Shown one piece after another: positions 8,433 through 53,615 of a DNA stretch of 64,000 nt. A program made the position numbers and the translations under genes. The DNA lies in the NCBI RefSeq assembly GCF_002277955.1, contig NZ_CP018477.1, positions 1,178,001-1,242,000 of the forward strand, given 5' to 3'. The notes beneath the pieces are model-generated. The model was not told the origin of the DNA. It searched no databases and saw only the letters and a list, made by a program, of their open reading frames with translations. The DNA comes from Thermogutta terrifontis. Lineage in GTDB: Bacteria; Planctomycetota; Planctomycetia; Pirellulales; Thermoguttaceae. The first letter of the stretch is position 1. Each line of letters begins with the position of its first letter.

Positions 8433-8560
8433 GGGTAGCCTTATTAGCCGGCCGGAAGATGCCGGTGTTTGCAACAGGTTGGGGAAGGCAAGGGGAGCAT
8501 GGCGCTGATCCATCCCCACTTTTGCAAAGACCCCCTGAGACGGCATGGACGCAATTTGCT

Positions 8561-8588
8561 TCAGGGGCAATTCACGAATTGTCCCTAC
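8561..8588. repeat. 28-bp palindromic repeat, copy 3
   Basis: Core AGGGGCAATTC ... GAATTGTCCCTAC; outermost pairs partly lost. It lies in the gap between the pentaheme and FG-GAP genes, so the two may not be one simple transcript. Confidence 0.8.
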
Positions 8589-20274: not shown

Positions 20275-20931
20275 ATGAACAGGTTGGGTTGGATTGGTAA
20301 TCGGCAAGCCGCATGGATGACGGTTTGTCTTGTGGTGATACTGGCGAGTGGTGGTTGCAGTGCCCTGGCAACCGCACTTTGGGTCACAGGTCAATCCGAT
20401 GTGAAGCCGGAGTTCGCAGGACTGAAGGACAAGAAAGTGGCCATCGTGGCCCGACCGGTGATCAGCCTCAGTTATCGGGACGCCCATGTGGATAAGGCGC
20501 TGGCCCGGCGGATCCACGCCATTCTGGTGCAGCGAGTCCCGAAGGCCCAGTGGATCGATCCACAGAAGGTCGAGCAGTGGATGGACGAACACGACTGGGA
20601 GAGCTATGTCGAGGTGGGACGCGGGGTCGGGGCGGATATGGTGATCGGAGTCGATATCGAGGCCTTCAGCCTGTACAAAGGACAGACGGTCTACCAGGGG
20701 ACGGCAACCCTCCGGGTGACTGTCCACGATTGTGCCACCAATCAGCAGGTCTTTGAGAAGACACTTGACCAGATCAATTATCCCCCCAACAGCGTCATAC
20801 CAACCTCTGAACTGCCGGAATCGGATTTTCGCAAAGAGTTTGTCTCTGTGCTGGCAACTGCTGTCGCGCGGCTGTTCCACTCTTACGATCCCCGCGAGTT
20901 CTGGGCACTGGACGCCAAGGCGATTCGTTAG
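20275..20931 (+). CDS. Lipoprotein of unknown function
   Basis: Predicted lipoprotein of 218 aa. The frame also has GTG at 20260 and ATG at 20269, but AAAGGA at 20264-20269 is correctly spaced only for the ATG at 20275. The signal peptide ends in the lipobox L-A-S-G-G-C. The mature part has an alpha/beta pattern (K-V-A-I-V-A-R-P-V, then an amphipathic helix, then D-M-V-I-G-V-D-I-E-A-F) that recalls CsgG/FlgO-like periplasmic lipoproteins, but the likeness is weak. It follows the DUF2752 gene by 69 bp on the same strand and may end the rny-ymdB transcript. Confidence 0.7.
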   Translation: MNRLGWIGNRQAAWMTVCLVVILASGGCSALATALWVTGQSDVKPEFAGLKDKKVAIVARPVISLSYRDAHVDKALARRIHAILVQRVPKAQWIDPQKVEQWMDEHDWESYVEVGRGVGADMVIGVDIEAFSLYKGQTVYQGTATLRVTVHDCATNQQVFEKTLDQINYPPNSVIPTSELPESDFRKEFVSVLATAVARLFHSYDPREFWALDAKAIR

Positions 20932-21045
20932 ATCTCTTGGGTCGCTTTGCCCAGAGAGGGCAGGTCTGAGTCATACCCGCTTTGGCTCGCCCGCCAGCCA
21001 GTAGCCCGAACCTCGCCGAAGCCTTCCGCGGGAGCGAAAATCGCC

Positions 21046-21130
21046 TCGGAGGGACCTGCTTGTTAGGTCCGTCGCTCGATGTCGGATCATCCATTCCTTT
21101 TCCCCGGGCACGACAAGCGTGCCCCTCCGA
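21046..21130. repeat. 85-bp two-hairpin repeat unit, copy 1
   Basis: Bounded by TCGGAGGG and CCCTCCGA. It contains hairpin 1 (GGACCTG, loop CTTGT, arm partner TAGGTCC) and hairpin 2 (GGGCACG, loop ACAAG, arm partner CGTGCCC). The two loops are reverse complements. Confidence 0.85.
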
Positions 21131-21198
21131 AAAGATTTTGGAGGGATGCGCCTGTTGGGTCGGCGATGTGAGGTTCGATGATGGATCGGTGTTTACCG

Positions 21199-21296
21199 GG
21201 GACTGAAGTCCCGCGATGAAAGCGGGGCTAAAGCCCCGCACTCCATGGAGTGCGGCGATTCATCGCCGCTTTTCGGTGAAGGCTTCAGCCTTCACC
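21199..21296. repeat. Array of five abutting perfect hairpins
   Basis: Inverted repeats at 21199-21212, 21222-21239, 21238-21253, 21252-21269 and 21275-21296. Most have stems of 6-10 pairs and tiny loops (GA, AA, TC). The middle three share boundary bases, so neighbouring stems cannot all be full at once. Confidence 0.85.
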
Positions 21297-21358
21297 CACC
21301 TTGGCGATTTCAGATGTTTTGCCGGGAGCACGACAAGCGTGCGCCTGCGAACGATTTC

Positions 21359-21443
21359 TCGGAGGGACCCGCTTGTCAGGTCCGTCGCTCGATGTCGGAT
21401 CATCCATTCCTTTTCCCCGGGCACGACAAGCGTGCCCCTCCGA
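21359..21443. repeat. 85-bp two-hairpin repeat unit, copy 2
   Basis: Nearly identical to copy 1. Hairpin 1 has loop CTTGT, hairpin 2 has loop ACAAG, with the same TCGGAGGG/CCCTCCGA ends. Confidence 0.88.
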
Positions 21444-21454
21444 TTTCTTTTTTG

Positions 21455-21539
21455 CTGGAGGGATGCGCCTGTCGGGTCCGCCGTTCAGGCTTCGATCGTC
21501 CATTCCGCCTCCGGGGGCACGACAAGCGTGCCCCTCCGA
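21455..21539. repeat. 85-bp two-hairpin repeat unit, copy 3 (diverged)
   Basis: Same length and layout as copies 1 and 2. Hairpin 1 has diverged (GGATGCG ... CGGGTCC); hairpin 2 keeps GGGCACG-ACAAG-CGTGCCC. Confidence 0.75.
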
Positions 21540-21546
21540 TCCGAAG

Positions 21547-21574
21547 GTAGGGGCAAATCATGAATTGCCCTTAC
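21547..21574. repeat. 28-bp palindromic repeat, copy 4
   Basis: GTAGGGGCAAATC arm with two mismatches to the complement. It sits directly after the 85-bp cluster. Confidence 0.8.
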
Positions 21575-21788
21575 GAGACGCGGCGCCCGTTTTATCGCAT
21601 CGATTTTTTCGAAACTGGCGATGCTTCAAACAGTCGGCGCGTTGACGGTTTCCCCTCAAACTGGGTACGATTGGGGAAGGATCTAAGGGCTCTGGAACAA
21701 GGGAAATGCACGATTCGTCCAAGATAGGGCAGGGTACGTGGAATAGCCCGGCGTAAAGCCTGGCGTGCGAGCACGGGGAGATCGTCTG

Positions 21789-22871
21789 ATGCGCCGAAAA
21801 AGAGTTGTCGCGGCAGTGGTTTGGGCGTCGGTGCTGGTTTGGTTGATGGGCACATGCGGACTGAATACATGTGCAATTGCGCAGGTTCGCCCTCAGGCAC
21901 CTGCAGCGAACCAGGCTCCTCGCCAGGTGCAACCGCCTGCTCCGCCCTCACAACCGGCGCCGCAACGGCCGGTTCCACCGGCTGCGGCGCCTGCTCCCAA
22001 GCCGCCAGCTCCTCCCACCACATCGCAGCGACTTCCCGCTCCGGTGGAGGTGAGCGGGACGGACCTCTTGACCAAGGATGGGGTGCAGCTTCAGGCGACA
22101 TATTACCCCAGCAATAAAGGAAAGGATGCCGCGGTTGTGATGCTCATCCACGGCTGGAAAGGGAGCCGGAGAGATTTCGATCGGCTGGCGCCGTTCCTCC
22201 AGCAGCAGGGTTATGCGGTGTTTGTGCCCGATTTGCGTGGTCACGGTGCTAGCACGCAGCGGCTTCTGCCCACGCCGACCACAATCACCGTGGACAAGAT
22301 GCCGCCCACGGAAGTTGCCCGGATGGTGGATATGGACCTCGAGACGTGCAAGCGGTTTTTGCTCCAGAAGAATAATGCGGGGGAACTCAATATTGAAAAG
22401 CTTTGTCTTTTAGGACTGGACGTGGGCGCGACTGTGGCCTTGGATTGGGCTCGCCTGGATTGGAGCTGGCCGGTGTACCCCGGACTCAAACAGGGCCAGG
22501 ATGTGAAGGCGCTGATTCTCGTTTCTCCGAAGTGGTCGGTGCCCGGTCTGAATGTCCAGGCCGCCATGTCACATCCAGGTGTAACCAAGGCCCTCTCGAT
22601 CTTCCTGATTGTGGGAAAGGACTCGAGCAAAGATTTGGCTGACGCCCAGCGGATGTACAACATTTTTTCGCGATTTCATCCGACCCCAAAAGAGGAGAAC
22701 CCGGAACTGCAGGATCTCTACTTTGCAAAGCTTCCAAGCACGGCGCAGGGGAAGGATCTCTTACTCCGCTTTGAACAGCCGCTCTTTCAATCGATTGCCT
22801 ACTTCGTCGAGCACCGGGTAGCTAAGCAGCCATTCCCGTGGCAGGACCGGTCTAAGCGAAAAGACCAGTGA
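21789..22871 (+). CDS. Exported alpha/beta hydrolase-fold protein with Asp at the nucleophile elbow
   Basis: Exported protein of 360 aa. ATG at 21789 with GGGGAG eight bases upstream is preferred to the GTG at 21765. Signal peptide 1-31, then a Pro/Ala/Gln-rich linker to about 85. The hydrolase domain has the oxyanion loop L-I-H-G-W-K-G-S (about 119-126) and P-D-L-R-G-H-G-A-S (about 148-156). At the nucleophile elbow, where G-x-S-x-G is usual, the sequence is G-L-D-V-G with Asp211. An Asp nucleophile occurs in epoxide hydrolases and haloalkane dehalogenases, but a non-catalytic fold is also possible. It is flanked on both sides by repeat clusters. Confidence 0.75.
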   Translation: MRRKRVVAAVVWASVLVWLMGTCGLNTCAIAQVRPQAPAANQAPRQVQPPAPPSQPAPQRPVPPAAAPAPKPPAPPTTSQRLPAPVEVSGTDLLTKDGVQLQATYYPSNKGKDAAVVMLIHGWKGSRRDFDRLAPFLQQQGYAVFVPDLRGHGASTQRLLPTPTTITVDKMPPTEVARMVDMDLETCKRFLLQKNNAGELNIEKLCLLGLDVGATVALDWARLDWSWPVYPGLKQGQDVKALILVSPKWSVPGLNVQAAMSHPGVTKALSIFLIVGKDSSKDLADAQRMYNIFSRFHPTPKEENPELQDLYFAKLPSTAQGKDLLLRFEQPLFQSIAYFVEHRVAKQPFPWQDRSKRKDQ

Positions 22872-23079
22872 TCAAGCCGTTGAGTCCATCGGCCATGATC
22901 GTTCTGCCATAGTGCTGACTCGTTTCCACTTTTCCTCTGCCGATAGAGAACGGGCGTCCACAGGGGGTTGCGACGGAGCGAGATCCAGCCCGGAGGGGCC
23001 TATTGTCACGTCCGTTTCCCAACGGCAGAGCAAACTTGCCTTGCGGTGGGCACGACAAGCGTGCCGCTGCGATTTGACG

Positions 23080-23107
23080 GTAGGGGCAATTCGTGAATTG
23101 CCCCTAC
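23080..23107. repeat. 28-bp palindromic repeat, copy 5
   Basis: Perfect palindrome, centre GT/AC variant (GCAATTCGTGAATTGC core). It abuts the 85-bp unit starting at 23112. Confidence 0.88.
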
Positions 23108-23111
23108 ATTG

Positions 23112-23196
23112 TCGGAGGGACCTGTTTGTCAGGTCCGTCGCTCGATGTTGGATCATCCATTTCTTTTCACCGGGCACGACAAGCGTGCCGCTCCGA
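23112..23196. repeat. 85-bp two-hairpin repeat unit, copy 4
   Basis: TCGGAGGG start, hairpin 1 with TTTGT loop, hairpin 2 with ACAAG loop, and a GCTCCGA end. It is enclosed between two 28-bp palindromes, seven to four bases away on each side. Confidence 0.85.
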
Positions 23197-23203
23197 TCTG
23201 AAG

Positions 23204-23231
23204 GTGAGGGCAATTCGTGAATTGCCCCTAC
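23204..23231. repeat. 28-bp palindromic repeat, copy 6
   Basis: GTGAGGGCAATTC arm paired with GAATTGCCCCTAC. It flanks the 85-bp unit on its right side. Confidence 0.82.
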
Positions 23232-23280
23232 CCCTGTACACAGCGGCCCGGTTCCACCCGGGGCCCGTCGCTGAATCTGA

Positions 23281-23952
23281 CTAATCTGTGCTCTGAGGTT
23301 GGAGGGCCGGTAGAACGATTTCCGTGCCGATGGGGAGCAGGTCCGGGTCTGGGATTATTGACCGGTTTGCTTCGAAGATGACCCGCCATCGGCCTGGGTC
23401 GCCGTAGAATCGCCGGGCAAGGTCCGGGAGGGTATCGCCGTCCTGAATGCGGTAGCGGAGGGTCTCTCGCCCGACCGTCTTGCGACTTTCAGACGTTTGC
23501 AGAGATTCTCGTGAACTCCCCAGCAACCGTGAATCGTTGGCAGAGGGAACCTGTTTTCCACTTCCATCATGGAGAGTATTCTCGGCGAGAGACTCGCGGC
23601 CGGTTCCGTTTCTCTCGTTGTGAGCCACGAATTGACCGGCAGGATACCGCTCGGGAATCGCCGGGGGCTTTTGATTGCTGAGTGACAACAGAAGGTGGGT
23701 TTCCGGAGCCGCTATGATCTCCGGTGGAATGGACGTATCGGCATCGGAAGAGGGGAGCGTTTGGCTGGTTGTGCTGAGCGGCGAATTCGGGGGGGAGGGG
23801 AACGGCGTCGATGTCAGGGAGGGGGGTGCGGAGCTGTTAAACGTTGCGGAAAAAGAGTGGGCCCGTGGTGGGCGGGAAAGCAATCCCCACACAGCACCCA
23901 CCGAGAGCGCTGCAAGGAGGATAAAAACAACGAGTCCGCGGTCCACTCCCAT
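23281..23952 (-). CDS. Membrane-anchored LysM-domain protein
   Basis: Protein of 223 aa. Residues 7-24 form a membrane anchor or uncleaved signal. A long Ser/Thr/Pro-rich linker runs to about 165. The C-terminal 50 residues are a LysM domain (Y-R-I-Q-D-G-D-T-L, A-R-R-F-Y-G-D, I-F-E-A-N, L-L-P-I-G-T-E-I-V-L-P), which binds peptidoglycan or similar glycans. The layout suggests an envelope protein that reaches from the inner membrane to the wall. It lies 256 bp downstream of secDF on the same strand, separated from it by a terminator. Confidence 0.82.
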   Translation of the reverse strand: MGVDRGLVVFILLAALSVGAVWGLLSRPPRAHSFSATFNSSAPPSLTSTPFPSPPNSPLSTTSQTLPSSDADTSIPPEIIAAPETHLLLSLSNQKPPAIPERYPAGQFVAHNERNGTGRESLAENTLHDGSGKQVPSANDSRLLGSSRESLQTSESRKTVGRETLRYRIQDGDTLPDLARRFYGDPGRWRVIFEANRSIIPDPDLLPIGTEIVLPALQPQSTD

Positions 23953-44156: not shown

Positions 44157-44948
44157 TCCTGGCTCGGGGAATCTCCCCTGCAGCCGGCTTTGGGGCATGG
44201 GTCTGGTTGTTGAAACACCCCAGGATCTGCAAGACTCTTTGACCAGCCGAAGGCTCGACTGATAGGAGGGGCAATTCAGGCGTTGTCCCTAAAGAAGATT
44301 ACGCCCGTGGTATCTTTCTGGTCATTGCAAAAGTGGGGGTAGAACGGGTTTGAGGCTCCTCATGATCGTTCCTCAATTGTCATTCATTCAGTAGAGAAAA
44401 CGGCTCGGTGGAATTAATGTTTGCGCACCTGCTCGGTAATGGATCGGCGGGCTGAAAGAATGTTACGGCTTTTCGTCAGGCTTTTCGTAAGAGTCTGCGG
44501 TGAATTGTAAATTCACGGTTGTGGCACTGTTATTAGGGGGCCACGGGTCGAAGGGAATCACGTGCGGTGGACCGGCCACGAAACTCAAGCAGAACTGATA
44601 ACGAGCAAGGACAAACCGCCGATTCACCGGAAGAGCCAGCGGCCGCTCGCGCGTGAATTCCAATCAATTGCTCGCGTTGTTTCTTCACTCCAAAGTCGCA
44701 TCCCTCAGGAGGGTGGCGCGCAAGTGAGTGCACCCGATCGGGTGGATCGTTTCCGTTTATCCGTTCTCGACGTAAACTGAAATTGTGGTGGAGAAAAGGA
44801 GGCCTAAGTTGGTTGTTTTTTTAAAAGAAGACAAGACATATACCTGCGCAGGCGTTGCCCGGCGGGCGCTGGCGCCATGCTCGGCTCTCGGGAAGCAGCG
44901 GGTCGGCTTGGCGGCCGTTGAATAGAGCCTTTGGAAACGGGGGTGGAT
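44157..44948. other. Gene-poor region with palindrome and ORF remnants
   Basis: Contains 28-bp palindrome copy 7 (44264-44291). Short minus-strand frames at 44463-44733 contain coherent protein-like phrases (for example G-P-P-H-V-I-P-F-D-P-W-P-P-N-N-S), possibly a decayed gene. A run of eight T followed by AAAAGAAG at about 44815 is another local feature. No intact gene is claimed. Confidence 0.4.
44264..44291. repeat. 28-bp palindromic repeat, copy 7 (degenerate)
   Basis: Reads AGGAGGGGCAATTC then GGCGTTGTCCCTA; the right arm has several changes. It is the most decayed copy. Confidence 0.6.
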
Positions 44949-45707: not shown

Positions 45708-46454
45708 GGCCAATCATATCGGGCAATTCCGTAATTTCTCAGAGGGAATTGGCCTGAAAAGCCGTGTTTCCTGCTTGGGACTTCCGCTATTTCCAGACGC
45801 GATGTGGGGAGCGCTGGAGAGATTGTTTTCCCTCGTCTGAAAGCGGCTTCCCATTTGGCCCGAACCTCTCCGCACATTTCCGCGCCGAACGCCGCTCAAA
45901 ACGCTCATTCCCGCTACTTGGATCAGACCAGGCGAGCGTCTTGGGTGTCAACAAAAAAGAGGTTTTCGAGCTGACCGGGCCGTGCTCCACCCATCACCGC
46001 TTCTTGCAAGCACCTGTGAGAGTGCAAAAGCGCAATGTGGTGGAGGGGCAATTCATGAATTGCCCCTACGTGCAAAGGGGAGATGAACAAAGCAGGCAGA
46101 GCCCGGTCAATCAATTGGATTGCCGAATGTCGGGACGTGGATCCGACGCACAGGTCACTCCGGGCTGGATTGCCCTGCTGTGGAAGGGCTTGTCGAGGTT
46201 CTCGCCCCATTCCAGCATCGGACGAAAAGTGGCAATGAGTGGGGTCCACAGTTGTGGAATTTGCTGGTGCGCGAGGTCAAAATAAAAGGCTGGGCCTAAA
46301 CGGTTTGCCGTTGTCGCGGGCTTGCCCGAGATATGAGGATGGGAAAGGCGACGGGTGGAGAAAAGGGAGTTTTCTGAACGTAATGAATGCGCAATTGGGA
46401 GGTCCAAAATCTTACGCGACTTGGTATGATGGGCCTGAGCATTTAATCCTTTGA
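45708..46454. other. Intergenic region before the polysaccharide gene
   Basis: No gene. It carries 28-bp palindrome copy 8 (46042-46069) and decayed sequence beyond it (46100-46160) similar to 53410-53475. A 173-codon frame at 45764-46285 runs through the repeat and is rejected. Confidence 0.55.
46042..46069. repeat. 28-bp palindromic repeat, copy 8
   Basis: Near-perfect: GGAGGGGCAATTCATG paired with GAATTGCCCCTAC. The centre is identical to copy 1. Confidence 0.88.
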
Positions 46455-53193: not shown

Positions 53194-53615
53194 AATGGTG
53201 CCTCCCCAAGATGGACGTTGCCTTCCAATTGCCCTCGGCGAGAGGTCCTGTGCATCTCCCCCGGTAAAATACTTTAAACCGACGTGCGTTGCCAGCAGGC
53301 GTGACCGATTTCCACTTTCTGGATGGGCCTGTTAGAAGCCAAACGGTCGATGCGTGGTAGGGGCAATTCACGAATTGCCCCAAGGTTAAACGGGAATTGG
53401 ACCGAGCAAACCAAGATCGGTCCGTGAATTGGACTACCCAACGTGGGAATGCGGACCTGACAGGCAGGTCGCTCCGAGCTGAATTTGACTTCCGCCGAAG
53501 GTCGCGGCGAGGTCCGAGGGCCTCACTCGCGGCAAAGCAAAAGCGGGGATGACTCAGCCGGGAGCGCGCTGTCGAATGGTTCTTCGCATTTCCATCAATG
53601 AGCAGAAGGGAACCC
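53194..53615. other. Intergenic region with palindrome
   Basis: Carries 28-bp palindrome copy 9 (53357-53384), then sequence similar to 46090-46160 and a hairpin reading GACCTG-ACAGG-CAGGTC (about 53454-53471) that resembles half of the 85-bp unit. No gene. Confidence 0.55.
53357..53384. repeat. 28-bp palindromic repeat, copy 9
   Basis: GTAGGGGCAATTC arm intact; the right arm ends in CCCCAAG rather than CCCCTAC. Confidence 0.8.

Follow-up and report, generated by a model that had tools for sequence, protein, structure and literature searches.

What is the 85-bp repeat that recurs between positions 21046 and 23196 of a 64,000-nucleotide stretch of Thermogutta terrifontis DNA, and what has multiplied it? 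T. terrifontis is a hot-spring planctomycete whose genome was searched as one contig of 4,810,751 bases; the whole 64,000-nucleotide stretch is called the window here. An initial annotation had described four copies of exactly 85 bp, each with two hairpins whose loops might kiss, and had likened them to repetitive extragenic palindromic (REP) sequences and bacterial interspersed mosaic elements (BIMEs). We consider it likely that the repeat belongs to a family of GGAG-tagged REP doublets, built like BIMEs or like REP doublets forming hairpins (REPINs), that is orphaned in Thermogutta from its likely REP-associated tyrosine transposase (RAYT), with an enzyme of the RAYT kind behind its spread. 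This reading draws on the structure, copy number, and arrangement of the repeat, on sequence identity that ends at the unit ends, and on the presence of the same REP type beside a clade of RAYT genes in other organisms.

An inverted doublet of one REP

Each end of the unit is the same REP, consisting of the tag GGAG, a 7-bp stem, the loop CTTGT, and the 7-bp complement, and the two ends face each other across a spacer of about 35 bp. The stem begins with GGAC in one hairpin (A) and is GGGCACG in the other (B). The initial annotation had offered, as an alternative, that the unit could be an inverted pair of one hairpin, and this is how both ends do read. The complementarity of the loops CTTGT and ACAAG is a by-product of this inversion, each hairpin being an inverted copy of the other.

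The four full units of the window all lie on the forward strand and are all 85 bp long: unit 1 at 21046..21130 (hairpin A 21048-21070, +; spacer; hairpin B 21106-21128, -), unit 2 at 21359..21443 (A 21361-21383, +; B 21419-21441, -), the diverged unit 3 at 21455..21539 (A 21457-21479, +; B 21515-21537, -), and unit 4 at 23112..23196 (A 23114-23136, +; B 23172-23194, -). Units 2, 3, and 4 are 98%, 73%, and 92% identical to unit 1, respectively (86-nt family). The shared ends that had been claimed for them are found in some copies only, since the copy at 21455 starts with CTGGAGGG and the copy at 23112 ends with CGCTCCGA; likewise, loop 2 is ACAAG in all four as described, but loop 1 is CTTGT in just two, being CCTGT in unit 3 and TTTGT in unit 4.

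Copy number, length, and arrangement in the genome

The exact core motif, GGAGGGNCNNGCTTGTCNNGNCC, occurs 508 times in the T. terrifontis genome, while its reversed control does not occur at all, and a BLAST search of the genome with the repeat gave at least 100 matches, the best at an E value of 1e-38. This small paired-hairpin element is present in a few hundred copies, far more than chance would give. Individual hairpins were located with a scan tolerating one mismatch in the tag, one in the loop, and one in the stem, over 290,080 bases comprising 30 stretches plus the window; the stretches were picked around BLAST matches and the RAYT gene, and their densities are not genome averages. The scan found 243 hairpins of the family (142 of type A, 92 of type B, and 9 untyped), 225 of them with the tag GGAG and 173 with the loop CTTGT, against 6 to 13 matches for each of six decoy patterns in the same DNA. 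A seventh pattern with the tag GTAG gave 233 matches and is not a true decoy because one mismatch converts GTAG into GGAG. The tag GTAG itself was present in a single hairpin out of the 243, which places the family outside the GTAG superfamily of REPs, and the aligned units end in GGAG/CTCC at a conservation of 0.98-1.00, outside the CGTC superfamily as well (the scan itself sought GGAG with one mismatch).

Full units were gathered by sequence similarity and not by pairing (BLAST over at least 70 of the 85 bases, which favors conserved ends), yielding 84 in the stretches examined. Their length is near-fixed but not exact: 85 bp in 57 units, 86 bp in 13, 84 bp in 7, 87 bp in 5, and 82 and 90 bp in one each, so that the exact length described for the window copies fails genome-wide. 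The arrangement of neighboring hairpins less than 150 bp apart is highly regular. Neighbors with their tags outward are A/B pairs in 73 of 73 typed cases (one more is untyped), with a gap of 34-37 bp in 67 of the 73; neighbors with their tags inward are A/B in 63 cases and B/B in one (two untyped), with a gap of 7-13 bp in 52 of the 63 A/B pairs; and neighbors in the same direction are A/A in 29 cases and B/B in one (one untyped). In BIMEs of Escherichia coli, REPs alternate in orientation and are separated by a long and a short spacer. The alternating A/B heterodimers of Thermogutta, with their long and short spacers, follow the BIME plan. The likeness to REP/BIME elements was thus borne out by a short tagged palindrome, high copy number, extragenic location, and alternating orientation with characteristic spacers. 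By the scan, 105 of the 243 hairpins stand outside a tags-out doublet, 69 of them with an exact CTTGT loop, although a decayed partner may escape detection; fully canonical hairpins make up 59% of the 138 in doublets and 45% of the 105 singlets. Doublet members are better conserved here, as is expected of REPINs, in a comparison that is biased by how the regions were chosen and by the limit of the scan.

Only 5 of the 243 hairpins fall within predicted genes, although 74% of the DNA examined was called coding by our crude, purpose-made gene caller. Among the 226 intergenic hairpins with two called neighbors (12 others had no such pair and were omitted), 111 are in tandem, 87 in divergent, and 28 in convergent gaps. 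This corresponds to about 3.3-3.4 hairpins per kb of gap in every class, a figure that compares classes only, as the stretches were chosen for units; divergent gaps are therefore not avoided. No recurring gene was found beside the hairpins, the 91 adjacent, unannotated genes giving five pairwise matches at E < 1e-6.

Conservation and stem pairing

Over the 84 units, conservation is 0.98-1.00 in the tags, 0.90-0.98 in the stems and loops, and 0.72 in the spacer, and the mean pairwise divergence is 8% in the hairpins and 40% in the spacers. Stem 1 varies in a paired manner. The pair 11:21 is C-G in 64 units, G-C in 16, and G-G in 3, and the pair 12:20 is T-A in 48, C-G in 24, C-A in 6, and T-G in 3. 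Substitutions in this stem had been said to keep pairing sometimes through G-T, which does occur but is a minor part, most changes being two-sided (G-C for C-G in 16 of 84 units, C-G for T-A in 24). Stem 1 is perfect in 60 of the 84 units, compared with 24.3 ± 3.9 when the 3' arms were redealt, and none of 2000 shuffles, which ignore the relatedness of the units, reached 60. After removal of near-identical spacers (within 15%), 46 units were left, and two-sided changes at the two pairs remained in 8 and 9 of them. Stem 2 is nearly invariant and hence little informative (66 perfect versus 63.1 expected). Template-switch repair of palindromes could also yield such compensation without selection.

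RAYT genes in Thermogutta

The initial annotation noted that no RAYT is visible in the window, which is correct; in the genome there is one open RAYT above the family cut-off (896451-897032, 195 aa, NF047646 score 83 bits, cut-off 80). The REPs on its flanks are of a different family, with the tag GGAGT and the loop TTTA or TTCA, whose pattern has 196 matches in T. terrifontis and none in the control, and the 13 kb around the gene yielded no CTTGT-type hairpin. We therefore rejected it as the enzyme belonging to the 85-bp family, and a REPtron of this family, with the same REP flanking a RAYT, was not found within T. terrifontis. The sole further match in the genome, a weaker RAYT-like gene (3676418-3676786), was also rejected; it scores 51 bits against the cut-off of 80 and is apparently frame-disrupted, its first part being in another frame as read by eye. 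It holds a GTAG-type palindrome, GTAGGGGCACGGCATGCCGTGCCCCTACC, inside the open frame, and the surrounding 3.2 kb showed no GGAG-CTTGT hairpin.

The GGAGT REPs accompany related RAYTs elsewhere. G023, a genome of another genus, has a RAYT 58% identical to that of T. terrifontis with the same GGAGT REP type on both sides; it contains 78 matches to the GGAGT REP pattern and no CTTGT motif. The relative G001 (probably Thermogutta sp. MAG-77) has 58 matches to the same pattern, and no RAYT was detected in this fragmented draft. Within the T. terrifontis clade (support 99/98), each of five RAYTs has GGAGT hairpins at most about 350 bp from the matched core of the gene, as read from the listings.

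The same REP type beside RAYT genes of other organisms

The exact core motif occurs 265 times in G001, with none for the reversed control. The other 394 of the 396 genomes searched within the order lack it, the two remaining members of the genus among them. A wider motif scan of one genome per species gave at least 117 stretches; pairing was analyzed in the 80 that were listed. Outside Thermogutta, 53 of the 69 matches listed are fully paired, with G-T allowed and three stem pairs left free by the pattern, while by our estimate full pairing would arise by chance in about 5%. The named groups among the matches listed are mainly Verrucomicrobia, Spartobacteria, Lentisphaerae, and Kiritimatiellae; 32 of the 69 come from two rumen genomes without a phylum name, and six are single matches in other groups, two of them pairing. 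A looser CTTGT pattern gave 281 motifs in G001 and 1 to 108 copies per genome in 22 genomes (G397-G418) chosen for having a match. Because the reversed control of this pattern matched 4 times, in 3 of the 28 genomes searched (twice in G416, versus 4 real matches there; never in T. terrifontis or G001), a genome with just a few copies is not a secure case.

A first search in relatives, with a strict scan of 30 of 94 PF01797 loci, showed no GGAG-CTTGT hairpin. A PF01797 search of the 22 genomes and MAG-77 returned 81 places, many of them weak or partial, of which 80 were examined and one, on a small contig, was left out. Two organisms have the REP type on both sides of a RAYT, as expected of a REPtron. 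The Lentisphaerae genome GWF2_50_93, which came up through the motif, has a RAYT at 154-675 of locus L214 between doublets at 59-119 and 774-835. In a metagenome-assembled genome (MAG) of Victivallis vadensis, where the genome was picked by the motif and the gene by its domain, the RAYT lies at about 1153-1635 of locus L327, and A hairpins with perfect stems and the loop CTTGT lie on both sides of it, at 819, 936, 1052, and 1727. These two RAYTs share 54% identity, against 17-21% with that of T. terrifontis. A search over 245 genomes of the phylum that used the protein alone found one further RAYT, 45% identical, in another planctomycete (G490), and the three form one clade (support 100/99). 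In this second RAYT clade, the predicted tag, here as GGAGGG, was found in three of three cases and the predicted loop, as CTTG(T/C), in two of three.

Three further RAYTs of GWF2_50_93 and the Victivallis MAG (L303, L334, and L337) belong to the T. terrifontis clade and also bear GGAGT hairpins. From these sequences, tag and RAYT clade may track together across phyla. In another RAYT clade (L326 and L316, in genomes G397 and G412), the flanking hairpins have the tag GTAG, and their stems are of the kind GGCGCTTTC or GGCGCGTT.

Dispersal and array change

Whole units are found in unrelated surroundings. The units at 361267 (+) and 369607 (-) are identical at 85 of 85 positions, whereas 21 and 33 of 110 flank positions agree; for 805289 and 1400159, the units agree at 78 of 85 positions and the flanks at 34 and 26 of 110. 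These come from a comparison of five of the most similar distant unit pairs. Neighboring units are related in a different way: the spacers of units less than 1 kb apart diverge by 28%, against 40%, and 34% of the 59 pairs less than 1 kb apart are under 10% divergence, against 0.4% of 3427 pairs. Moreover, the window locus has three full units where the orthologous locus of G001 has one, at the site of unit 1 (21046..21130). Dispersal is thus seen in identity that ends at the unit ends, and local array change in the differing unit number of the window and G001. Composition in the flanks of the 84 units shows no clear cleavage-site signal by eye.

How the family may have spread

In the mechanism that we propose, a single-strand transposase of the RAYT kind (HUH/Y1) would act on single-stranded DNA, recognizing the GGAG tag, the CTTGT loop, and the paired stem. 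It would cut at this site and move or copy the doublet into further intergenic sites, after which arrays would grow and shrink by local recombination. An enzyme that recognizes tag and loop, and for which the stem has only to be paired, would be expected to leave the tag and loop nearly fixed and the stem free as long as it pairs, as is observed here. The matching RAYT would have been lost from Thermogutta, or never have been present, and the family would persist as an orphan, perhaps assisted by the one remaining T. terrifontis RAYT. That the DNA was cut and transposed, and that the matching RAYT gene was lost, is our inference.

Several observations weigh against this reading. Among the 80 PF01797 loci examined, GGAG-CTTG(T/C) REPs lie on both sides in only two, and in two more the REPs are over 1 kb off. 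Even at the two positive loci the correspondence is incomplete, as the flanking hairpins of GWF2_50_93 have the loop CTTGC in three of four cases and CTTGT in one, with one stem mismatch, and the inverted B partners of Victivallis, read by eye, are imperfect. The RAYT of G490 has inverted hairpins on both sides with a GGAGGG tag, but their loop is TCCT and their stem imperfect (by eye), and its genome lacks the CTTGT motif. A RAYT of the clade formed by GWF2_50_93, Victivallis, and G490 was not found in T. terrifontis. With regard to spread, identity ending at the unit ends could also stem from gene conversion, and the G001 ortholog of site 361267 is not a clean empty site, as its gap contains other repeats and a stretch of N.

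Alternative explanations

The kissing loops of the initial annotation imply a functional RNA or DNA element in which loop-loop pairing is selected, an idea that can now hardly be sustained. It is true that the loops are perfect reverse complements in 47 of the 84 units, or 59 if G-T is counted, and that RNA-parameter folds pair the loops in 68 of 84, though inside one long stem (DNA-parameter folds give two hairpins in 48 units and one long stem in 31). However, 47 is the number predicted if the two loops vary independently (47.7 ± 2.4 in 5000 shuffles; p 0.68), only one of the five units changed in both loops has loops that match, and 105 of the 243 hairpins lie outside a doublet by the scan. 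Copies elsewhere in the genome thus keep a near-fixed length, but their loops match only as independence predicts, an observation that already contradicts selected pairing. The near-equal density in tandem, divergent, and convergent gaps does not suggest one kind of transcript either, and the sole Rfam match up to an E value of 1 in window positions 20900-23400 (E 0.92) is under the gathering score and off the units. A miniature inverted-repeat transposable element (MITE) of a classical (DDE) transposon, with terminal repeats TCGGAGGG...CCCTCCGA, would account for ends that are inverted repeats and for whole units in unrelated flanks. We regard this origin as highly improbable, since target-site duplication is not general: abutting direct repeats of 3, 4, 5, and 6 bp were found in 4, 2, 0, and 1 of the 84 units, against shuffled means of 1.7, 0.7, 0.2, and 0.2, a slight excess involving few units. 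Many hairpins are also single or in direct tandem, no gene recurs beside them (91 genes; DDE families were not searched for in the genome), and the same hairpin type flanks RAYT genes in other organisms.

Two further explanations concern the way in which copies multiply. Arrays made by recombination alone, without any transposition, would fit the greater likeness of spacers within 1 kb and the three full units of the window against one in G001, but the copies are chromosome-wide, and near-identical units are distant and lie in unrelated flanks. Local amplification is therefore contradicted as the sole cause, a role in which we give it very little credence, and contributes to the arrays. The lone T. 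terrifontis RAYT, of the GGAGT type, might instead also move the GGAG-CTTGT doublets. No other RAYT over the cut-off was found in the genome, GGAG precedes the hairpin in both REP families, and identical or near-identical units suggest fairly recent spread. Such cross-mobilization nevertheless seems unlikely considering the 13 kb around this RAYT that are free of CTTGT-type hairpins, the genome of G023, which combines a 58% identical RAYT and abundant GGAGT REPs with no CTTGT motif, and the reverse situation in G001, where 281 CTTGT motifs and the GGAGT family coexist with no RAYT detected in the fragmented draft.

Beyond the orphaned REP-doublet family itself, we can only tentatively suggest a bolder version, which is doubtful at present. 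The orphan population, of more than 500 hairpins, would have outlived its own RAYT and would still spread in trans through the distant RAYT whose REP shares GGAG; more widely, a GGAG superfamily would span several phyla of the Planctomycetes-Verrucomicrobia-Chlamydiae (PVC) group, with the extension of the tag (GGAGT or GGAGGG) tracking the RAYT clade.

Comparison with known REP systems

In Pseudomonas fluorescens, the inverted REP doublet (REPIN) is taken as the spreading unit (Bertels and Rainey 2011, PMC3116915). The Thermogutta family resembles it in having an inverted doublet with a less conserved spacer, an extragenic location, and perhaps the ability to form a long single-strand hairpin. 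It differs in that the two REPs of the doublet have different stems (A/B in all typed tags-out pairs), in the GGAG tag, and in that no matching RAYT was found in the genome. The alternating orientation and the long and short spacers are shared with BIMEs and with GTAG REP dimers. Like the Thermogutta family, the GTAG-3 REPs of enterobacteria are reported to form heterodimers only (Di Nocera 2013, PMC3733652). In contrast, the Thermogutta tag is neither GTAG nor CGTC, and while GTAG dimers are mainly located in unidirectional and convergent gaps (PMC3733652), the Thermogutta family does not avoid divergent ones in the stretches examined. A tag, a short perfect stem, important loop positions, and a freer stem are also features of the RAYT/TnpA-REP systems of Stenotrophomonas and Marinomonas (PMC8266576), although their REPs have GTAG tags and GCT or TTTA loops, in place of the GGAG tag and CTTGT loop of Thermogutta.

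The closest comparison is within the same genome. The GGAGT-TTTA REPs also have a GGAG-containing tag, a short perfect stem, and inverted copies, and copies of them lie in the same array (21222-21269). Unlike the 85-bp family, they have other stems and another loop and flank their own RAYT in T. terrifontis and G023, whereas the 85-bp family was found beside no RAYT in T. terrifontis. We found no paper on such a REP family in Thermogutta or Lentisphaerae, in a search that left subscription literature mostly outside. The word GGAG does not appear in the available text, figures not covered, of PMC2817692, PMC3733652, and PMC8266576.

Other repeats in the window

Besides the four full units, the window holds decayed and single members of the family. 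A decayed single A hairpin with the GGAG tag, the loop CCTGT, and two mismatches lies at 21140..21162 (+), and a single B hairpin with the tag GCAG and one stem mismatch at 21326..21348 (-), both from the hairpin scan. A decayed fifth unit occupies 22990..23072 (+), its limits set by eye, and the scan finds only its B hairpin, at 23048-23070 (-). Far from the array, an isolated A-type hairpin with the loop CCTGT and one mismatch was detected by the scan at 53453..53475 (-).

The copies of the second family in this array form a doublet with the loops TTTA and TTCA: GGAGT-GCGGGGC-TTTA-GCCCCGC, of the type flanking the RAYT of the genome, at 21222..21244 (-), and GGAGT-GCGGCGA-TTCA-TCGCCGC at 21247..21269 (+), both positioned by eye. 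A third palindromic family is built around GGGGCAATTC..GAATTGCCCC, some copies having GTAG/CTAC ends, and is found in the window at 1584-1623, 8549-8588, 21535-21574, 23068-23107, 23192-23231, 44253-44292, 46030-46069, and 53345-53384. It lies at most 30 bp before 14 of the 84 units of the 85-bp family. Longer repeats of 79 nt that end in this third palindrome lie at 8510-8588, 45991-46069, and 53306-53384 of the window.

Implications

REP repeats are abundant, but the pairing of enzyme and repeat has been worked out for few of them, and the superfamilies described in PMC3733652 are those tagged with GTAG and CGTC. The 85-bp family has a different tag, together with a loop that occurs in several PVC phyla. 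Its position can link it to a RAYT clade in some genomes, while in another it is orphaned, and it therefore provides a natural test of how far a RAYT reads tag, loop, or stem and of how long REPs last without their enzyme.

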